Virus record (IMG/VR): IMGVR_UViG_3300024518_003629 | Location: 1-35,541 of that record | Direction: 5' to 3' (one strand) | Source of the DNA: a virus | Length of the DNA stretch: 35,541 nt | Shown here: in pieces, positions 1 to 35,541 of the stretch | Numbering within the stretch: position 1 is the stretch's first letter | Layout of the letters: every line of letters begins with the position of its first letter | Notes under the pieces: model-generated | Seen by the model: only the letters and a program-made list of their open reading frames with translations | Told to the model about the DNA's origin: nothing | Database searches by the model: none | Made by a program: the position numbers and the translations under genes

Positions 1-49
1 TAACCAATTGTTCGTAAATTACGGTTGCTATTCCTCTGTTCAGTTCCAT
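1..49 (-). other. 5' end of the loader-like gene after circular closure
   Basis: ATG at 49-47 with ribosome-binding site AAAGGA (65-50 region). The 14 codons here join in frame to the gene at 35138-35541 once bases 1-9 and 35533-35541 are merged. This stretch overlaps the 3' part of the initiator in another frame. Confidence 0.7.
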
Positions 50-806
50 TTGTTTCCTTTTGTTGGTTGGCTAGTTCTTGCATGAAATCGTCTTGAAGGT
101 GTTGTATTTGAGATTTAGGTTTTTCAACTTTTGGTAATTCTTGTTCCCAACAGCGTTTATTTAACCAAGTAGAAAGACCTTTCCAGCTCGGACAAAATGC
201 GTCAATTTCTGCTAAAAACTGTTTATGTTCGATTTCTTTATTGAGGGCTGGAAGTAATTTTGGAAGAATTTCTTTGAATTCAGATTTGTATTTTTTCTTA
301 AAGTTTTTCCATTCTGTTTCATATCCGTTTTTAACTCCTGGAAAAACAGAACGAAAACTTTCAAAATCACTATTAATTATTTCATTCTTAACCTTCTTCT
401 CTTTCTTTATATTCTTGTTTGTGTTCACTGGTTGTTCATCTGTTGTTCGTTGGTTGTTCACTGGTTGTTCATTTGGTTGTTCATTTTCTTGATAGGACCC
501 CCAGTTAACCACTGATATCAAACGGCTACGGTTAGATTTCTGTTGTTCAATCTGTTGTTCGGTTTTCAAACACTTTATGATACGCTCAACCTTTGACTCT
601 TGAATTCCGGTTTGTTTAGAAAGTGACCCTCTAGACGTGATAAATTCACCTGGTTTTAAGGTTATTATCTTACCTCCAAAATTGGACCGATAAGGCGTAT
701 GTGTTGCTAAAAGTAGGAAGGTAATCCATAGATTCATAAAATCTGAATCATTAGATTTGGGGTGGTCTAAGAGTTTTCTGTGTAGTTTTATCCAACCTTG
801 ATTCAT
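1..806 (-). CDS. Lambda-O/DnaD-like replication initiator (replisome organiser), 3' end cut by window edge
   Basis: The ATG at 806 has a Shine-Dalgarno (AAGAAGG) about 5 bases upstream. 268 codons are visible. After circular closure the frame adds ten codons and stops at 35502-35504, giving about 278 residues. Residues 1-106 look like the winged-helix N-terminus of phage replisome organisers: a MNQGWIKLHRKLL start, a GEFITSRGSLSKQTGI helix-turn-helix, and a strand ending VVNWGSYQ. A Q/N/T-rich linker (about 107-130) and a basic stretch follow, then a C-terminal domain of unknown fold. Such proteins bind origin iterons and recruit the helicase loader. Here the linker-coding DNA itself carries iterons, as in lambda O, and a loader-like gene starts inside its last codons. 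The initiator role is inferred from fold, iterons and neighbours. Confidence 0.8.
   Translation of the reverse strand, partial: MNQGWIKLHRKLLDHPKSNDSDFMNLWITFLLLATHTPYRSNFGGKIITLKPGEFITSRGSLSKQTGIQESKVERIIKCLKTEQQIEQQKSNRSRLISVVNWGSYQENEQPNEQPVNNQRTTDEQPVNTNKNIKKEKKVKNEIINSDFESFRSVFPGVKNGYETEWKNFKKKYKSEFKEILPKLLPALNKEIEHKQFLAEIDAFCPSWKGLSTWLNKRCWEQELPKVEKPKSQIQHLQDDFMQELANQQKETNGTEQRNSNRNLRTIG
420..561. repeat. Iteron array, probable origin of replication inside the initiator gene
   Basis: The octamer GTTGTTCA/G starts at 431, 442, 453, 464 and 476, spaced 11, 11, 11 and 12 bp, about one helical turn. A degenerate copy is at 420, and two more copies lie at 542 and 554. Eleven-bp spacing is not a multiple of three, so the repeats fall in different reading frames and give different peptides (NEQP, VNNQR, TTDEQP). 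The DNA, not the protein, is being conserved. An AT-rich stretch at about 355-420 lies beside the array, as in lambda-type origins. The origin function is inferred. Confidence 0.75.
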
Positions 807-1896: not shown

Positions 1897-2223
1897 TTAT
1901 AACATTTGAATGTTGTTTGCAATTATTTCTGTTCTATATTTCTTTTGTCCTGTTTGTGGGTCCTCCCAAGAGCGGTAATTAAGTTTGCCCTCAATAAATA
2001 AAGGACTACCCTTTTTAAGGTAGTTCTCTGCTATTTCAGCTAATCTTTTATAACACGCTATATTGTGCCATTGGGTACTCTCTTTCTTTACACCTTGGTT
2101 ATCAGTGTATTTCTCTGTCGTAGCAACTGAAAAGGAAGCTGTTTTTGTTCCTGTATTTGTGCTTCCTATTTCGGGCTCTTGGCCAATGTTTCCAATCAAA
2201 GTTACTTTATTTAAAGTTGGCAC
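1897..2223 (-). CDS. ssb: Single-stranded DNA-binding protein, OB fold, no acidic tail
   Basis: Classic bacterial or phage SSB features: NKVTLIGNIGQEPE near the N-terminus, TASFSVATTEKY, STQWHNIACYKRLAEIAENYLKKGSPLFIEGKL and the RSWEDPQTGQKKYRTEI strand. I choose the GTG start at 2223 (VPTLNKV) because GAGGGG lies 7 bases upstream. The in-frame ATG at 2238 has no ribosome-binding site. At 108 residues it is shorter than the usual 120-180 and ends straight after the OB fold (ANNIQML), so the acidic DDDIPF-type tip that recruits host repair proteins is missing. It overlaps the coiled-coil gene by 17 bases and should protect ssDNA in phage replication or annealing. Confidence 0.93.
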   Translation of the reverse strand: MPTLNKVTLIGNIGQEPEIGSTNTGTKTASFSVATTEKYTDNQGVKKESTQWHNIACYKRLAEIAENYLKKGSPLFIEGKLNYRSWEDPQTGQKKYRTEIIANNIQML

Positions 2224-3178
2224 ATCTAATCCCCTCATCTAAAATTGATTTCACTTCAGTATACATTTGTTTGTTTACATTTGATTTGAATTCATATTTG
2301 CTTTTAAGTTCAGCCAAATCTTTTAACAAGTCTTGCACCTTTTCGGAATCACCTTTATTCAAATCAGCTTGAATCCTAGCTTCTTCTTCCTCTTTGGCTT
2401 TTAATTCAGCTTCTTTTTGGGCTTTTATCTTATCTTCGAGTTTTTTTCTTTCTTCAGCTTCTTTTTTTAGTTTAGCTTGATTTTCTGCTTGCACCCTTCT
2501 ATTCTCTGCGTGAAGTTCAGCCTCTCTAAAACGTTGAAACTCAAGCTCTTTTTTGCGCTCAGCTTCTTTTTCTGCAGCTTCTGCCCTAAGCTTTTCATTC
2601 TCTTTATAAACACGTTGCCTTTCAGCTTTAACCTTTTCCTCTTCTTCCTTGGCTTTCTGAGCGGCTTCTTCTCGTGTTTTAAGAAGAAGCTCATGATTTG
2701 TTTTAGCACCTGAAAGAAAGATTCCCCAAAACTTTTCGGACATATCACCCAAATCATCTGGAATAGGGTTTACACCATACTTCATTAAATCTTTAGCTCT
2801 AGAAGCTTGAACGGTTTGAATTCGTTCCTTTTCTATGTTCTCATAGTGCTTTTCAATCTCTTTTAATTTATCCTCATTTCCTTTAGATGCCATAATTTGA
2901 GCATTTTTCCAACCATCTACAAACCTCCCCCCCTTTAGGTAAAACTCTTTTAGCTTCTTATGAACTTCTGCTGTGCCAGTCCTGACTTTAACGTATTTAT
3001 TCCGAAGCTTTTTAGCTTCTTCACAAACTTCTTCAGTGATATCTTTTTTAATAATATCATTGTAATCCTCTTCTAAATCTTTCATTTTATCCAACATCGG
3101 AATGAATAATTCAGAAATCTCCTTTGCTTTTGTCGATTCTAAACCATATTCTGTTGGGTTTACTGTCATTAATTCCAT
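2207..3178 (-). CDS. Coiled-coil phage protein (323 aa) next to ssb
   Basis: The N-terminal domain (1-165) starts MTVNPTEYGLESTKAKEIS and contains TEEVCEEAKKLRNKYVKVR, FVDGWKNA and a segment ending YGVNPIPDD. I recall related proteins beside ssb and annealase genes in other phages (a DUF1351-like group), where their role is unknown. Residues about 166-275 form a long K/E/A/Q-rich coiled coil, and a short helical tail follows. MELMTVN may really begin at the second Met. The stop-start contact with the upstream gene (TAA then ATG) suggests coupling. A recombination or replication accessory role is inferred from context. Confidence 0.8.
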   Translation of the reverse strand: MELMTVNPTEYGLESTKAKEISELFIPMLDKMKDLEEDYNDIIKKDITEEVCEEAKKLRNKYVKVRTGTAEVHKKLKEFYLKGGRFVDGWKNAQIMASKGNEDKLKEIEKHYENIEKERIQTVQASRAKDLMKYGVNPIPDDLGDMSEKFWGIFLSGAKTNHELLLKTREEAAQKAKEEEEKVKAERQRVYKENEKLRAEAAEKEAERKKELEFQRFREAELHAENRRVQAENQAKLKKEAEERKKLEDKIKAQKEAELKAKEEEEARIQADLNKGDSEKVQDLLKDLAELKSKYEFKSNVNKQMYTEVKSILDEGIRCANFK

Positions 3179-6211: not shown

Positions 6212-7093
6212 CTAAAATAACTCTGGGATAGATTTCTTTACTTTCATGATAACATGTCTTTTTAATTGTTTGTAATCAATTTGAGGGTCTTTATTTTCCT
6301 TAATGAAATTCCATGACTCCTCTCTGATAAGGTCATAATAAACCGTGTTAAGTAGTCTAGGAATATATTTAGTTCTCCAACCGTCTTCAGCATTCCGAAT
6401 CTTCTCATAGACCTTTTGAACAAAGTGAGGGGTGATATATTTATCTGTAATTTTCTTTTCTACAGCCAATTTTTCTTTAATATCCAAAGGGTCATTCATT
6501 GCTCTGTGTTTATCTTTGAATTCATTTCTCACAATTTTAGCCCAAGTTTGACGGCCATATTTATTTTGATAAGAATAATTCTTAAGCACAACCCCCTCAC
6601 CAATTCCTTCATCAATTAGATAAGTGTTTTTCTCACACATTTCATAAAGAGTTTCTGGTTTTGCGTCTTCAATTCTACACAAAGGAGGAATGAATTCTAT
6701 TTCAAATTCTCTTAAAACATGGGCATAGTCATTATAATGAATTACCCCACTTGGACCGTAAACATCAAATACATAGAACTTTCTCCAAGCTGTTTTTCTA
6801 TATGTCTTCAAAGAATGAGGGATTAACCATTCACCAAATAAACGCCAATCAGGATAGAGTAAGAGCAAATTGGCAAAACGCTCATCTTCAAGAATAGCCT
6901 TCATAAATCCTTGATTGTCATCATCTAAGGAAAGCTCACGATTTCTTGAACCACACTTTAGCTCGTTCCCTTTTCGCCATACAGAGCCGTTTGACCCGTC
7001 TAGTTTAGGGAATACATAAACAACGCCCTCTTCAATTCCTTTTGTTTCTACAGTTTCATATCTTTCAACATGCTGATATCTTTTGAAATTCAT
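6212..7093 (-). CDS. Rnl2-type RNA ligase (293 aa)
   Basis: Nucleotidyltransferase motifs in order: motif I K30-LDG (adenylated lysine), motif III FGEWL (86-90), motif IIIa FYVFDVY (106-112), motif IV EGVVLKN (166-172) and motif V WAKIV (184-188). A helical C-terminal domain of about 100 residues follows, as in T4 Rnl2 (334 aa). It would seal 3'-OH/5'-phosphate RNA ends using ATP through a lysyl-AMP intermediate. The ATG at 7093 follows CAGGAGATAGA and lies 23 bases below tRNA-Ser, which points to repair of nicked tRNA. I see no polynucleotide kinase/phosphatase partner in the window. Confidence 0.92.
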   Translation of the reverse strand: MNFKRYQHVERYETVETKGIEEGVVYVFPKLDGSNGSVWRKGNELKCGSRNRELSLDDDNQGFMKAILEDERFANLLLLYPDWRLFGEWLIPHSLKTYRKTAWRKFYVFDVYGPSGVIHYNDYAHVLREFEIEFIPPLCRIEDAKPETLYEMCEKNTYLIDEGIGEGVVLKNYSYQNKYGRQTWAKIVRNEFKDKHRAMNDPLDIKEKLAVEKKITDKYITPHFVQKVYEKIRNAEDGWRTKYIPRLLNTVYYDLIREESWNFIKENKDPQIDYKQLKRHVIMKVKKSIPELF

Positions 7094-12334: not shown

Positions 12335-14226
12335 TATTGATTACCTCCGAATAAATCGCCTAAAGTTTGTCCTGTTAGCCCTAAGCCAACTCTTGCCGCT
12401 GATTGATTTTGTACAATATCTGAAAGAGATTGAGCCCCCTTTTCAGCTCCAACACCTAATCCAACGAGTCCAGCTTGAACCTTTGGACCACCTAAAACAC
12501 CTCCAACTATTGCACCCGGAACCCCTAAACTAGGATTTATTGCACTTCCAGCAGAAGCCCCCAAACCAAAAGCTAAGGTTGACTTCCCTGTACCGATTTG
12601 ATTAAATATTTTTGGAATACCTTCTTCACCAAACTGTTTAGCTAGGCTAGTCAACTTGGCTCTTTTAGTAAAATCTTCCCCTAGTATTTTTTCAATTCTT
12701 CCTAAGACTAATTGTCTAGATTTTTTATTCTTTCCATATAGGTTATTAATAAAAGTTTCGACTCTACCAAGCTGCACAGAGGGGTCACTCCCTAAAAACC
12801 TGTATAAATCATCTCTTGCATCAAGGGTTCCTGTTAAAGATTTCATGGCCTGTTCATATTGTGGCTGCCCTTTTGCCGCGCTCAATAAATCTGTTTTAGC
12901 TTGAAGCCTCACTTCTTTAAGGGCATCATTTAAAGCATTTGCCTCTGGCCTCCCCCAGTCAATAACAGCGTCTAATCTCTTCCTAAGTTCAAAATAATCT
13001 TTTGCTGAAATTGAAATAGGCTGACCACCTGTTGTAATTGGCTTACCTTTTGGCCCAAAAAGCTTACTTGTTTTTGTGCTCATTTTTTTTATCAAATCGT
13101 TAAGGACTTTATTAACAGGGGCTTCTGGGCCAATCGGTCCAATTATCGCCTCTAATCCAAAAGAATCTTTTCCTTTCAACACCTCAATCTGAACATCTTT
13201 TAATTTTTGTAAAAGATTTTTAGTTGAAATTGTTGGCATTGCATCCAATGATTTATTTATAACTTCTGATTCTGGTAACACTAAATCATTCACCTTATCC
13301 AAAAGGTCTTTTCCTATTTCAAACCCTTTACCAGCAAATTCTTTCATTTTCTTAGCAGTTGGACCAAATCCAGTTCCAAAAGCTTTTAGTGCGTCTTTGC
13401 TCACCCCAGAGATTACTTCAGCAGATTGTTGTAAAATTGGATTCACAATCTTCTTCATACCTTGGGCGCTTAATACAATTCCTCCCGGAATAAGGGCGTT
13501 TGTTGCTACATCAAACCCAAATTGACCGGGAGAAACTTTTTCTCCTTTCAATACGTTTTCTGCTTGTGTTATTGCACCACCCAATGAACCCTCAACAGCT
13601 CCAGCAGTAATCAAACCTTTAATTCCACCACCAACAGCTTGCATTATTTTAGCTGCAATCCCTGTGCCTGTAAAGGCCCCTAAAATAGGTGTAGCTGGAC
13701 TAATTAGCATTGATTCAAAAAACCCTTCTCCCTCCGTTTCAGCTAAATCTTCTAAAACAGTGTTTATTTTATCTCGAACAGCTTCAACAGGTAAACCCGT
13801 TTCCTGAGCTATTGAGTCAGGGGATATACCATAAGGGGCTAAAACTTCCTCACCTAACCGGCCGAAAGCAACCATTTCTTCTAATTTTTCCTGTGCTTGG
13901 GCTTCTGACTGAGCCTTTACGCCTGTTTTTAAAGTCCTCCCCATTCCACTAGCTACATCTAAAACACCCGCAACACCTCTTTCAAAAAACCCTGCTTCTT
14001 CTGCACCCGCTTTTCTACTTCTTGGAAGAGCCGCTTCTAATAAATTAGTAGGAGGCCCTAAAGGTTCTTGGGGAATTTGTTGTTTAGCTTGTTGAGCTTC
14101 AAGTATGCCCGATGTAGTTAAATCACCAAACTTTTCATGAGCCAATTGAATCAACTCAAACCTATCTTCCGGGGATAAATCGGGAGAGTTATTAATCTCT
14201 TCTAGTGCTTCTACTAAACCAGCCAT
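12334..14226 (-). CDS. Ejection (internal virion) protein, P22 gp16-like by position (630 aa)
   Basis: Gly/Ala-rich amphipathic stretches (GTGIAAKIMQAVGGGIKGLI at about 188-207, FGLGASAGSAINPSLGVPGA and GVLGGPKVQAGLVGLGVGA near the C-terminus) are typical of proteins that leave the capsid and insert into the host envelope. The rest is helical and charged. It is the third of three consecutive ejection-type genes before the tailspike, matching the P22 order gp7, gp20, gp16. Assignment rests on composition and order, not on a clear motif. Confidence 0.75.
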   Translation of the reverse strand: MAGLVEALEEINNSPDLSPEDRFELIQLAHEKFGDLTTSGILEAQQAKQQIPQEPLGPPTNLLEAALPRSRKAGAEEAGFFERGVAGVLDVASGMGRTLKTGVKAQSEAQAQEKLEEMVAFGRLGEEVLAPYGISPDSIAQETGLPVEAVRDKINTVLEDLAETEGEGFFESMLISPATPILGAFTGTGIAAKIMQAVGGGIKGLITAGAVEGSLGGAITQAENVLKGEKVSPGQFGFDVATNALIPGGIVLSAQGMKKIVNPILQQSAEVISGVSKDALKAFGTGFGPTAKKMKEFAGKGFEIGKDLLDKVNDLVLPESEVINKSLDAMPTISTKNLLQKLKDVQIEVLKGKDSFGLEAIIGPIGPEAPVNKVLNDLIKKMSTKTSKLFGPKGKPITTGGQPISISAKDYFELRKRLDAVIDWGRPEANALNDALKEVRLQAKTDLLSAAKGQPQYEQAMKSLTGTLDARDDLYRFLGSDPSVQLGRVETFINNLYGKNKKSRQLVLGRIEKILGEDFTKRAKLTSLAKQFGEEGIPKIFNQIGTGKSTLAFGLGASAGSAINPSLGVPGAIVGGVLGGPKVQAGLVGLGVGAEKGAQSLSDIVQNQSAARVGLGLTGQTLGDLFGGNQ

Positions 14227-16892: not shown

Positions 16893-17369
16893 TTAAATAA
16901 TAATCCTATAGTTTCCCGTAATTGATATTGAATCAGTCACAGTTGCCCATGTTGGAGTATAATGTCTTACCTTCCCATTTAATGTACCTGTGCTCTTTAG
17001 AACAGGCCCTGAACCGATACTAATATTGGTTGATATATTGTCTGTTTGGCCTTGCCCATCAACAGCAGAGAGAAAGGGTAAATTATTTATATATGTGGTT
17101 CCCGCTGTACTTGAAGTGTTTGTACCTGGAACAATTTTTACATCAAAAAAGACCATGGTATTGAACCTATAATAATTTCCTGTAATTGTTGCCGTCCCTA
17201 CTTCAGTCAAACTCGTAAACGTTGGAGTGAATGATATGACTTGACTATTTCTTTGCCCAAGCATCTTTTCAATACTTGTAAACCATTTTCCCCACACAAG
17301 ACCTAAGCCATTCATTCCGAATAATTGGGATTGAATAGGTGCTGGGTTTATATATTCTTTTGCGTCCAT
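16893..17369 (-). CDS. Fibre or needle-tip protein (158 aa) at the P22 gp26 position
   Basis: The N-terminal 40 residues (MDAKEYINPAPIQSQLFGMN, WGKWFTSIEKMLGQ) look like an attachment helix. Residues 45-158 are a beta domain with FTPTFTSLTEVGTATITGNY and a SISITGNYRIII end, a sequence style I know from receptor-binding ends of phage fibres. In P22 gene order this slot holds the tail needle. A short needle with a beta knob, as in Sf6-type needles, is plausible but inferred. Confidence 0.72.
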   Translation of the reverse strand: MDAKEYINPAPIQSQLFGMNGLGLVWGKWFTSIEKMLGQRNSQVISFTPTFTSLTEVGTATITGNYYRFNTMVFFDVKIVPGTNTSSTAGTTYINNLPFLSAVDGQGQTDNISTNISIGSGPVLKSTGTLNGKVRHYTPTWATVTDSISITGNYRIII

Positions 17370-18517
17370 TAATTTCTTAAAGCCTTACTTTCAATTGTTC
17401 CACCCGTAATAGCTACTTTCACCTTGGATGTAGTTTGAATTTCATAAACTCTATTTCTTGATGTTCCGAGCCTATCCCACCTAACCCTAGTTTCATACTC
17501 TCCTTTTTTACCCATTGAGCGCCAATGCTCATTTCCCCAAGACCTAGCCCCATTTTCTGACCATCTAAGTCTTATTTGTGGGTCTACATCTGGACCAGCC
17601 ACAATAGTGTAATTAACAGCTGAGCTCGTTCCTTCAGTTGTTGTCAAAGTGACAGGATGAACCCCCAATTCTAAACCGGGAACCGTCACCCCTGTTATTA
17701 AAGTGGGGTTGTATGTTGTTCCTGTAACTGCCGTTCCATCAAAATCAATTGTGGGGTCAGCAATTGAAGGAGAATTTAAAAGGTTTGTTCTATCTGAAGA
17801 GGTTAATAAATAATTATCATAATATCTGAAATCATCAATTTGACCGTCAAAATAATTAGCAACTCCAGAACCATAATCTGAAGCACCTACCCTTAAAAAT
17901 CCTGTTGTAGAATCAAAAGTTGAAGATGTACCAGGGCCAATAGTTGAAACATTATCAATATAAACAGTAGTTAACATTGTTCTAGGAGAAGAAAAAAGGG
18001 TTCTAGTTACGATAATATTATACCAAGTATCAACAACCATTGAGCCACCGCGAGCAGTAAAACTAGGAGGAGTATTGGGTCCATAGTAATAATTTATCCT
18101 ACCTGAAGCATCCACATAAAGAGTTTGAGCGTTAGTGTCTACAGTTGTATCTCCATTTTGGAAAATAACCATTGAATCCCTTAATACGTCCATCTTAATC
18201 CAAAAAGACATAGACCAAGTTCTTAAATCATCAGTGGTCCCCATAATTCCAGGGTGGGTTAAAGTGCTCGTTACATACTGAGAAGTTCCATTTAAATTTA
18301 TTGCTTGATTTATTTTACCCGTTACATATGTGGGAGAACCCGAACTCGTTTGAGCGTAGTTTCCTAATGCGTCTGTATCATCCCCGTCAAAACGTAGGTG
18401 CATACTTCCAGCGTTGCCAACTGTAGGTTCTACTTTTAAATCGGTTCCTATTATTCCAAATGTAGAACCAACAATACCCCTATTGGGTTGTAAGCTTGTG
18501 ATTGCTGGGGCGGTCAT
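17369..18517 (-). CDS. LamG domain inserted in a TIG/IPT domain, fused to a gp10-type C-terminal domain (382 aa)
   Basis: Residues 1-30 (PAITSLQPNRGIVGSTFGII) are the first strands of an IPT/TIG Ig-like domain. Residues about 38-248 are a concanavalin/LamG domain (MHLRFDGDD start, RTWSMSFWIKMD, DTWYNIIVTRT, NYFDGQIDDFRYYDNYLLTS). The TIG then resumes (TGVTVPGLELGVHPVTLTTT, SSAVNYTIV, to about 310). Residues 313-382 copy the separate 77-aa gene just upstream in transcription (18517-18750). The last domain should dock on the tail; the LamG could bind glycan. Confidence 0.82.
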   Translation of the reverse strand: MTAPAITSLQPNRGIVGSTFGIIGTDLKVEPTVGNAGSMHLRFDGDDTDALGNYAQTSSGSPTYVTGKINQAINLNGTSQYVTSTLTHPGIMGTTDDLRTWSMSFWIKMDVLRDSMVIFQNGDTTVDTNAQTLYVDASGRINYYYGPNTPPSFTARGGSMVVDTWYNIIVTRTLFSSPRTMLTTVYIDNVSTIGPGTSSTFDSTTGFLRVGASDYGSGVANYFDGQIDDFRYYDNYLLTSSDRTNLLNSPSIADPTIDFDGTAVTGTTYNPTLITGVTVPGLELGVHPVTLTTTEGTSSAVNYTIVAGPDVDPQIRLRWSENGARSWGNEHWRSMGKKGEYETRVRWDRLGTSRNRVYEIQTTSKVKVAITGGTIESKALRN

Positions 18518-18750
18518 TAATTCCTCAATGGCTTAGTTTCGATTGTTCCGCCTTTTATTGCAACTTTTACGGGAGCCGTTACCCTTATCTCATAAATCCT
18601 GTTTCTCGCTACACCTAAACGATTCCATTTTATTCTCTTTCTATACTCACCCTTCTTGCCCATTGGAAGCCAATGTTCATTACTCCAATTTCTGGCTTTA
18701 TTATTTGACCATCTAAGCATTATTTGGGGGTTAGATTCTGCTTCAGCCAT
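18517..18750 (-). CDS. Detached C-terminal domain of a gp10-like tail factor (77 aa)
   Basis: NPQIMLRWSNNKARNWSNEH, then MGKKGEYRKRIKWNRLG, RNRIYEI and PVKVAI. I know this block as the C-terminal end of P22 gp10-type packaged-DNA stabilisation proteins, where it is part of one chain. Here the preceding 414-aa gene ends in GVGLTS-stop and this frame restarts at the overlapping TAATG, in the -1 frame relative to it. By hand count about 48 of 70 residues match the C-terminus of the LamG protein. Confidence 0.82.
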   Translation of the reverse strand: MAEAESNPQIMLRWSNNKARNWSNEHWLPMGKKGEYRKRIKWNRLGVARNRIYEIRVTAPVKVAIKGGTIETKPLRN

Positions 18751-19994
18751 TAGCTTGTTAACCCCACACCTGTTTCCATAACAATTTGTAAACTATTATG
18801 TCTTACTCTTTTTTCATCTGAATCTATGTGCTGACAAGTTCTAATTCTTGGTATTCTATCCCCATTATCATCATAAGTATTTGTATCAAATTCATAAATA
18901 AGAGGTTTACTGTGGTCTCCAACTAATACTTTATTGAATGCTGAAATAGCATTTATTCCTCTATGCTTCTTGAGGTTTCCCGTTGAGGGTTGTAAATAGG
19001 CTTTCTCATGCCAAACCCCTGTAACTTCATCATAACAAAATGTCATTTCGTCAGCTTGGAATGATAATGTATAAACTGGATGCCCTTCTAATTCGTATGT
19101 ATACCCAACAGCATCTTCAGGAGTAGACATTTCATTTATCTTTCTTTCAATTGGGTGGGTACTTATTCTTTGTGATTGAAAGTTTACACTTTTGTAAATG
19201 CTACCAATTCCTTGTTCACTTCTTCCCAACCAGAAAATAGAATCATTCATTTTGGCAGCGGAATATCTAGCCAATATACCACGCTCAATTATAGCTCCTG
19301 GTATTCTTTCCATTGGGAAATCGTTGTTTCCCGTATCCTGAAAAACTTCAACACCATTTGAACCAAGCAACCAAATGTTTTGATTAGTGATTAAGAAAGA
19401 TTCAATTATATCCGGGTTGCTTTCAGCTGTTCCGAAATCTAAAGCGTTCCATGTAGTACCATCCAACAGCCCAGAGATAAAGAAGTCTTGTGTATTAAGT
19501 TGATTAACTAGAAAGAACTGGTCTAAGAAACCTGCATGTGTTGGAGAGCTTGGAAACCCTCCAGAGTTTGGAAAGTTGGTTGTGTTTATTTCCAATAATG
19601 TATTAGTGGTTAAAGTAAGTAGATATCCATTGAACCCATCCACAATCAACAACTCAGAACCATTATCAACCATACTGACAGTTCCAATAGTTGTATTAAT
19701 TGTACCTAGATTTGTTTCTATTCCTGAGCTATTAACCTCATAAAGAATATTTCCAGATACTGTAAAATACCTTCCTTTTGCTGTTTTATATTGACCCCTA
19801 ATCCCTCCGCCTGTAGTCAAATTGGCAAATAGCTTTAAGCCTGGAGTTCCGTACATTATTTGACCATCTGTATTTTGAGACTCTGGAGGAGCGTATTCTA
19901 AATATAGATTTACAGACCTTTGAGCCGCAAATGGTAAACTTCTGGCCTCATAAGCAGGCCCAAGAAAAGGAAACTTCAAGAAATAGTACTCCAA
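18750..19994 (-). CDS. P22 gp10-like tail factor (packaged-DNA stabilisation), body domain (414 aa)
   Basis: The N-terminus MEYYFLKFPFLGPAYEARSL...FAAQRSVNLYLEY and the beta-propeller-like body (GTPGLKLFANLTTGGGIRGQ, NIWLLGSNGVEVFQDTG, FWLGRSEQGIGSIYKS) are characteristic of the family that forms the tail hub between gp4 and the needle or spikes. It stops at VMETGVGLTS, where relatives continue into the RLRWS..G block; that block is the next gene. Overlaps the gp4-like gene by 19 bases. Confidence 0.87.
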   Translation of the reverse strand: MEYYFLKFPFLGPAYEARSLPFAAQRSVNLYLEYAPPESQNTDGQIMYGTPGLKLFANLTTGGGIRGQYKTAKGRYFTVSGNILYEVNSSGIETNLGTINTTIGTVSMVDNGSELLIVDGFNGYLLTLTTNTLLEINTTNFPNSGGFPSSPTHAGFLDQFFLVNQLNTQDFFISGLLDGTTWNALDFGTAESNPDIIESFLITNQNIWLLGSNGVEVFQDTGNNDFPMERIPGAIIERGILARYSAAKMNDSIFWLGRSEQGIGSIYKSVNFQSQRISTHPIERKINEMSTPEDAVGYTYELEGHPVYTLSFQADEMTFCYDEVTGVWHEKAYLQPSTGNLKKHRGINAISAFNKVLVGDHSKPLIYEFDTNTYDDNGDRIPRIRTCQHIDSDEKRVRHNSLQIVMETGVGLTS

Positions 19995-35023: not shown

Positions 35024-35138
35024 ACATTTTTTCAAATTCTGCAATTTTCTTTAATCTGTCCTTTACTCTCCATACTCTCACTTGGTTTATTGAAAAGCCA
35101 ATCATTAAACCCATTAGAAAAGCAGTTGAATTTTCCAT
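35019..35138 (-). CDS. Small protein with hydrophobic N-half (39 aa)
   Basis: MENSTAFLMGLMIGFSINQV is hydrophobic, then comes a basic helix (RVWRVKDRLKKIAEFEKMS). It starts in a TAATG overlap with the loader-like gene and ends just inside the promoter element. Probably the last gene of the replication unit. It could sit in the membrane; role unknown. Confidence 0.55.
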   Translation of the reverse strand: MENSTAFLMGLMIGFSINQVRVWRVKDRLKKIAEFEKMS

Positions 35139-35541
35139 TATCTAGTCCTTTTTTTGGTTAGTCGCTTTATTATTTCTTGAATATCGTGTTTTGGTTCTGG
35201 CTCTTTAGCCATTTTAAGGTACTTCTTGTGTTGTGGATGTTCTGGGGGGTACTTGTCAGCGAAAAGCCAACATTGTTGTTCCCACGACATTGCAGGCTCA
35301 TCATAGGGTAATTTATAGCAGTCTGAAGAGTTTCTTTCCTTAAGAGCCATCCAAATTTCTTTAATCTCTCTGGGTTTAGGCATAAACTTTCCCTTAGCTC
35401 GGAATTCTTTAAAACAATCTCTAAGTATTTCAGGGTCGTGATTTTCCGAAAAGTTCTCTTCTGCCCAAGTATTAGCTTGAATCTTAAGGGTATCCTCTGA
35501 ATCAATTTTTTTTCCTAGCGATATATGGGTTATAACCAATT
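35138..35541 (-). CDS. Helicase-loader-like replication protein, 5' end wraps to position 49
   Basis: Within the window the frame is open to the end. Across the circular junction it extends to an ATG at 49-47 with AAAAGGAAACAA upstream, giving 147 residues that begin MELNRGIATVIYEQL. The segment NHDPEILRDCFKEFRAKGKFMPKPREI resembles the helical core of G39P-type and lambda-P-like loaders (a helix, then F.P...EI). It starts inside the 3' end of the initiator gene and follows it, the order of initiator-loader pairs in lambda-like and SPP1-like phages. The helicase it would load must come from the host. Confidence 0.7.
   Translation of the reverse strand, partial: LVITHISLGKKIDSEDTLKIQANTWAEENFSENHDPEILRDCFKEFRAKGKFMPKPREIKEIWMALKERNSSDCYKLPYDEPAMSWEQQCWLFADKYPPEHPQHKKYLKMAKEPEPKHDIQEIIKRLTKKRTR
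35533..35541. repeat. Terminal overlap identical to bases 1-9
   Basis: TAACCAATT occurs at both window ends. Merging the copies gives a 35,532-bp circle in which two overlapping genes read through the joint. This is what a circular or headful-packaged, permuted genome gives after assembly. Confidence 0.75.

Follow-up and report, generated by a model that had tools for sequence, protein, structure and literature searches.

A putative phage replication origin of 11-bp-spaced iterons and AT-rich 9-mers inside a DnaD-like initiator gene

Introduction

The counterparts of the locus reported here are origins that lie within the gene of their own initiator. The initiators of Tuc2009 and TP901-1 bind direct repeats in their own genes, which serve as the origin (PMC8965321); the lambda origin lies inside its initiator gene (PMC7466680), as does oriL of SPP1 (PMC6316719), and the four Rep boxes of pSK41 fall within rep, again placing the origin inside the initiator gene (PMC5703833). 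Given these precedents from lambda, SPP1, pSK41 and Tuc2009, the intragenic kind of origin is therefore already known. With initiators of the RepA_N type, the iterons are for the most part described as direct repeats with inverted repeats inside them (PMC7145576). Single-strand AT-rich motifs that recur next to initiator sites are known as the DnaD recognition element and the TrfA 13-mers (PMC10201434, PMC4081077). The plasmid pPR9, which has a phage-like initiator, was shown to replicate (PMC5703833); we considered it as a functional yardstick and dropped it, as its helix-turn-helix (HTH) is unrelated and it has no 11-bp array.

Here we describe a repeat array in the initiator gene of IMGVR_UViG_3300024518_003629, a whole IMG/VR virus record of 35,541 bases (the window). 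From its sequence, the modelled protein and the analogous systems above, we propose, with a probability of about 0.86, that this array and the AT-rich 9-mers beside it constitute a putative phage replication origin inside the initiator gene.

Genome and initiator gene

The record encodes the proteins expected of a tailed phage (portal, major head protein, terminase large subunit, head closure, and a tail depolymerase-like protein). Nearly all of its genes lie on the minus strand, and because of this GC skew is not diagnostic here: the first-pass annotation had proposed that a cumulative minimum near 450 would support the origin, and the detrended circular skew instead reaches its minimum at 14,021 and its maximum at 1,041. 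The two ends of the record (1-9 and 35533-35541) are identical over 9 bp (TAACCAATT), and the initiator frame, read through this overlap, continues for 10 codons to a TGA that overlaps the TTG of an ORF in another frame. If the overlap is a true circular junction, the initiator would stop at about 35502, some 278 codons from its ATG at 806. The 9-bp ends and the frame across the junction would be consistent, as weak evidence, with a genome that is circular, or circularly permuted, and opened within the initiator gene. Elsewhere in the record, two ORFs (17369-18517 and 18750-19994) match different parts, C-terminal and N-terminal respectively, of the head-closure family PHROG 578 and have a small ORF between them, so that this gene is possibly split or interrupted; an RNA ligase family gene (6212-7093; PHROG 548, E 1.3e-41) is also found within this small phage genome.

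The features of the initiator region, with domain limits taken from an AlphaFold2 model, are as follows.

3..806, minus strand: initiator gene, with its ATG at 806, crossing the record end
489..797, minus strand: codons of the winged-helix DNA-binding domain (residues 4-106; pLDDT mostly >90 there)
Within 489..797, minus strand: predicted recognition helix (about residues 70-82) and wing strands (86-90 and 95-99)
3..374, minus strand: codons of the helical C-terminal part
1897..2238, minus strand: SSB gene, upstream of the initiator (Pfam SSB, 2.7e-35)

The initiator protein (P0001) matches the DnaD-like helicase loader profile PHROG 2514 over residues 24-165 (E 3.3e-35). It had been described as an O-like winged-helix protein, and the winged helix is borne out by AlphaFold2, which gives a confident winged helix (residues ~10-105), a helical C-terminal part and, between them, a poorly ordered linker; as to the likeness to lambdoid O, Phage_rep_O (PF04492) scores 17.6 bits, under its gathering cut-off of 28.7. 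No RepA_N profile (PF06970) appeared among the Pfam matches of the initiator at E 0.01, and a sequence search of the PDB with the family profile gave no convincing match. By fold, the initiator resembles the DNA-binding domains of CAP (Z 9.9) and the N-terminal domains of the RepA_N initiators 4pt7 and 4pql (Z 8.4, 93-100 residues aligned), Z values that do not separate RepA_N from CAP-type domains. The region encoding the poorly ordered linker is that of the main iteron array.

The helical C-terminal part is common at length to only one close relative (L003), in which the gene after the initiator reads as a DnaC-type AAA+ loader; elsewhere among the relatives this position is taken by a DnaC-like loader gene in L110 and by a DnaB-like helicase gene in L114. 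The gene next to the initiator in the window (35138-35539) had no recognisable helicase or loader match in the family libraries or the fetched loci. Judging from the model, the helical C-terminal part is probably the contact to helicase or loader.

Iterons in the window

The word GTTGTTCR has seven exact copies in the record (both strands scanned), all of them within 431-561 and in one orientation; dinucleotide shuffles of the record hold 1.8 copies on average and never reached seven. No second array was found elsewhere in the record. On the coding (minus) strand the word reads TGAACAAC, and its copies are arranged as follows.

431..483, minus strand: main iteron array, with units at 431-438, 442-449, 453-460, 464-471 and 476-483, in steps of 11, 11, 11 and 12; reads NEQPNEQPVNNQRTTDEQP
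542..561, minus strand: iteron pair, with units at 542-549 and 554-561 in one step of 12, whose codons read EQQIEQQ in the first wing strand
420..427, minus strand: degenerate last unit, TGTGTTCAC at about 420, GTGAACACA on the coding strand

A codon listing places the degenerate unit at the same position in most relatives. The pair sits 66 bp from the main array, across non-repeat codons. The iterons had been said to ignore the reading frame of the gene, which is correct for the 11-bp steps, as these take in every one of the three frames: the copy at 453 stands in the second, the one at 442 in the third, and those at 431, 464, 476, 542 and 554 in one common frame. The array is therefore translated as NEQP-VNNQ-RTTD-EQPV. 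It is not correct for the 12-bp steps, which follow the reading frame because the copies that flank them share it (EQPNEQP; EQQIEQQ).

With the protein held fixed, seven copies of GAACAAC arose in 1 of 2000 codon-usage draws of the window gene, and a chain of five units at 10-13 bp in 2 of 2000. A stricter chain (a 6-mer four times at exactly 11 bp) was met in 49 of 2000 synonymous shuffles (2.5%). The signal from the window is thus significant yet modest, since repeats are already favoured by the peptide, and for this gene alone the DNA-level repeat signal is suggestive rather than overwhelming.

Conservation of the array among relatives

Viral contigs were searched for relatives with the whole protein and with an N-terminal alignment that left out the repeats, and a scan of bacterial genomes added prophage-like relatives and their hosts. 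One cultured relative is the Pseudomonas phage KLEP17-4. The representative set comprises 55 initiator genes with no more than 60% identity to each other, most of them retrieved by an N-terminal motif outside the repeats. Where hosts are given for metagenome contigs (Parcubacteria, Phycisphaerae, Methanoperedens), the binning may be at fault; likewise, two initiator relatives (L139 and L144) lie in contigs binned as Nealsonbacteria and Parcubacteria, where misbinning is possible, and if the binning is true, phages of CPR bacteria use this initiator. Two public vB_LmoS records, MZ361825.1 (10548-10665) and MZ361826.1 (L157), also carry odd labels: in one the origin stretch is annotated as 'tail tape-measure', and one gives Hydrogenophilus as host, both apparently errors of annotation or labelling.

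The layout 12 - 66 - 12 - 11 - 11 - 11 is nearly unchanged in many of the 26 first relatives. Across 97 loci, identity exceeds that of synonymous shuffles at lag 11 (z 16.5) and lag 22 (z 14.3), and in the array region of the 55 representatives lag-11 identity is 0.516 vs 0.395 in the shuffles (z 18.1), with z 13.6 at lag 22. Lags 9, 10 and 13 gave no signal in the same region, nor did lags 11 and 22 in the N-terminal or C-terminal codons of these genes. At least three units in at least two frames are present in 39 of the 55 representatives, where 1.3 are expected. Selection on the DNA of the array, beyond the peptide alone, is shown here by these comparisons. The helically spaced repeats in a winged-helix initiator gene that the first-pass annotation picked out are thus confirmed, and they are conserved at the DNA level across a large family. 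Three relatives (L086, L088 and L096) carry the array at 12 bp, in frame and in up to nine copies (peptide TEQQTEQR).

The iteron word itself varies. Many phages have GAACAAC; elsewhere the unit is GACCAAC, GCACAAC, GGACAGC, GACGGAC, AACCAAC, ACAGCAGACGG, CATCAGACGGA or others. The pair tracks these changes, being 0.860 identical to the array of its own phage, vs 0.795 +/- 0.006 when permuted (0 of 20,000 permutations), and, among variants only, 0.822 vs 0.741 +/- 0.008 (0 of 20,000), a test inflated to some degree by shared ancestry. Such concerted, non-tandem change of pair and array is the pattern expected if a single protein reads every site. Relatives without the pair differ in the residues of the first wing strand and retain the array. 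Over 117 bp, array and tail share 80% DNA identity with a Listeria-type phage, while the two initiators are only 34% identical over 136 residues. Covariation of protein columns with iteron bases was only slightly higher in HTH and wing than in the rest and is not decisive.

AT-rich 9-mers beside the array

The neighbouring AT-rich stretch that had been pointed out is real: a 60-bp segment at 354 is 80% AT, a value that only 1.2% of the record reaches, and across the family the AT content climbs to ~0.77 directly after the array. Within it lies one further feature.

381..416, minus strand: four AT-rich 9-mers, AAGAATATA AAGAAAGAG AAGAAGGTT AAGAATGAA, whose AAGAA starts are exactly 9 bp apart

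AAGAAT occurs 97 times in the tails of the 55 relatives, vs 24 +/- 4 expected with the protein fixed (about 4-fold), mostly at 9-bp steps and mostly in frame 0, although also in frame 1; in the tails of L002-L107, readings from the other frame are KEL (L002, L006) and QEC (L053, L068). Since the word is over-represented with the protein fixed and sometimes stands in another frame, it is a DNA-level element. Codon choice in the tail is shifted (AAG 0.62 vs 0.31; AAT 0.90 vs 0.53), and avoidance of A-runs could partly cause the preference for AAG over AAA. Unlike the iteron words themselves, AAGAAT is common to phages with differing iterons. From this layout, the 9-mers at 381-416 are a probable, still putative, unwinding element; that a protein reads one of their strands, as TrfA and DnaD do, is a guess by analogy.

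Proposed mechanism

If the array and the 9-mers act as an origin, the N-terminal winged helix would bind the units as monomers arranged head to tail, one to each turn of the helix and all on one face of the DNA. The resulting initiator-iteron complex would wrap or strain the DNA and so melt the AT-rich 9-mers at 381-416, where the initiator or its partner would hold one single strand, and the helical C-terminal part would recruit the helicase via a loader. A site within the gene would keep protein and site linked through recombination.

More tentatively, and at less than even odds, the same layout may represent one origin code for the whole family, in a broad set of phages whose hosts are Firmicutes, Proteobacteria, Bacteroidetes and perhaps CPR bacteria. 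Such a code would couple an 11-bp iteron, specific to each initiator and drifting along with it, to an AAGAAT single-strand element that is shared and does not drift; some of the iterons would lie in the codons of the DNA-binding wing, so that recognition surface and target constrain each other.

Alternative explanations

The array could be an autoregulatory operator, at which the initiator blocks transcription of its own gene or limits its synthesis while replication starts elsewhere, and intragenic sites of a DNA-binding protein would indeed show repeats and concerted variation of just this kind. That reading leaves aside the AT-rich 9-mer block that adjoins the array across the family; moreover, the record offers no second array, and the characterised counterparts act as origins (PMC8965321, PMC5703833). 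We therefore consider it unlikely as an alternative to the origin, although the two roles of the array may coexist. An RNA-level element in the initiator mRNA, which the array enters by being transcribed along with the gene, is less likely still: the RNA fold of the window is ordinary (z -0.58), and duplex DNA better explains the helical pitch and the concerted words.

To two further explanations we give very little weight. Peptide repeats of a flexible Q/N-rich linker could by themselves generate the DNA repeat; the linker is repetitive, and the strict word chain does turn up in 2.5% of this gene's synonymous shuffles. However, the period of 11 bp runs through three frames that encode different amino acids, and the agreement between frames is not explained by protein-level selection. 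Given z 18 relative to synonymous shuffles in the 55 lineages, the synonymous-codon nulls rule out the protein as sole cause. Functionless tandem duplication by slippage has in its favour that some loci (L009, L014) have expanded cleanly, in multiples of 11 or 33 bp, but a pair that lies 66 bp off, past non-repeat codons, and nevertheless tracks the array is not explained by tandem events, and the 12-66-12-11-11-11 spacing is conserved in many distant phages; as sole cause it is rejected.

Implications

Intragenic origins have so far been known from a handful of phages. An 11-bp periodicity above synonymous shuffles in linker codons provides a simple signature that locates the probable origin, and it does so for most members of a phage group that is very large and mostly uncultured. 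The odd linker peptides of the NEQPxNNQRTT type are explained as a side effect of reading an 11-bp word in all three frames, and the naturally diverged initiator-site pairs offer material for work on changes in specificity. Three features may be new to the literature: the breadth of the layout, the pair encoded in the wing and the AAGAAT block that these phages have in common.

Comparison with known origins

A lambda-like origin had been proposed for this locus, and the comparison with lambda ori in gene O holds in principle and place: in both, the iterons lie mid-gene with an AT-rich stretch on their downstream side. It does not extend to pitch, as the annotated lambda iterons are 18 bp long and 20-24 bp apart, with no 11-bp chain, whereas the steps here are 11-12 bp. 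The SPP1 gp38/oriL system is likewise similar in working principle and place, but SPP1 has a second origin, oriR, in contrast to the one array found in the window record. The TTCTT-rich strand of the window holds several TnnT motifs, although the likeness to DnaD and TrfA is one of pure analogy.

Closer parallels in spacing come from two lactococcal phages. The rep gene of Tuc2009 (Rep2009/orf16), in which the annotation places the origin, holds four units spaced by exactly 11 bp (0 of 2000 shuffles), and ORF11 of r1t likewise holds four at this exact spacing. Both thus share with the window at least four units at 11-bp pitch inside a DnaD-like initiator gene, and r1t also has AAGAAT repeats just after its units, in steps of 15 bp rather than the 9 of the window. 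An iteron pair in the codons of the DNA-binding domain was not found in Tuc2009 or r1t, and BLASTP of the window's DNA-binding domain against initiators of the Tuc2009/r1t type, Tuc2009 Rep included, gave no match below E 0.5. No 11-bp array was found in TP901-1, though its repeats are reported as the origin. With RepA_N initiators such as pSK41 Rep, the window protein shares a winged-helix N-terminal domain, a linker that encodes the sites and a helical C-terminal domain; the window units, unlike RepA_N iterons, are short direct repeats. Tuc2009 and r1t, with their 11-bp units, and RepA_N plasmids such as pSK41 are nearer models for this locus than lambda.
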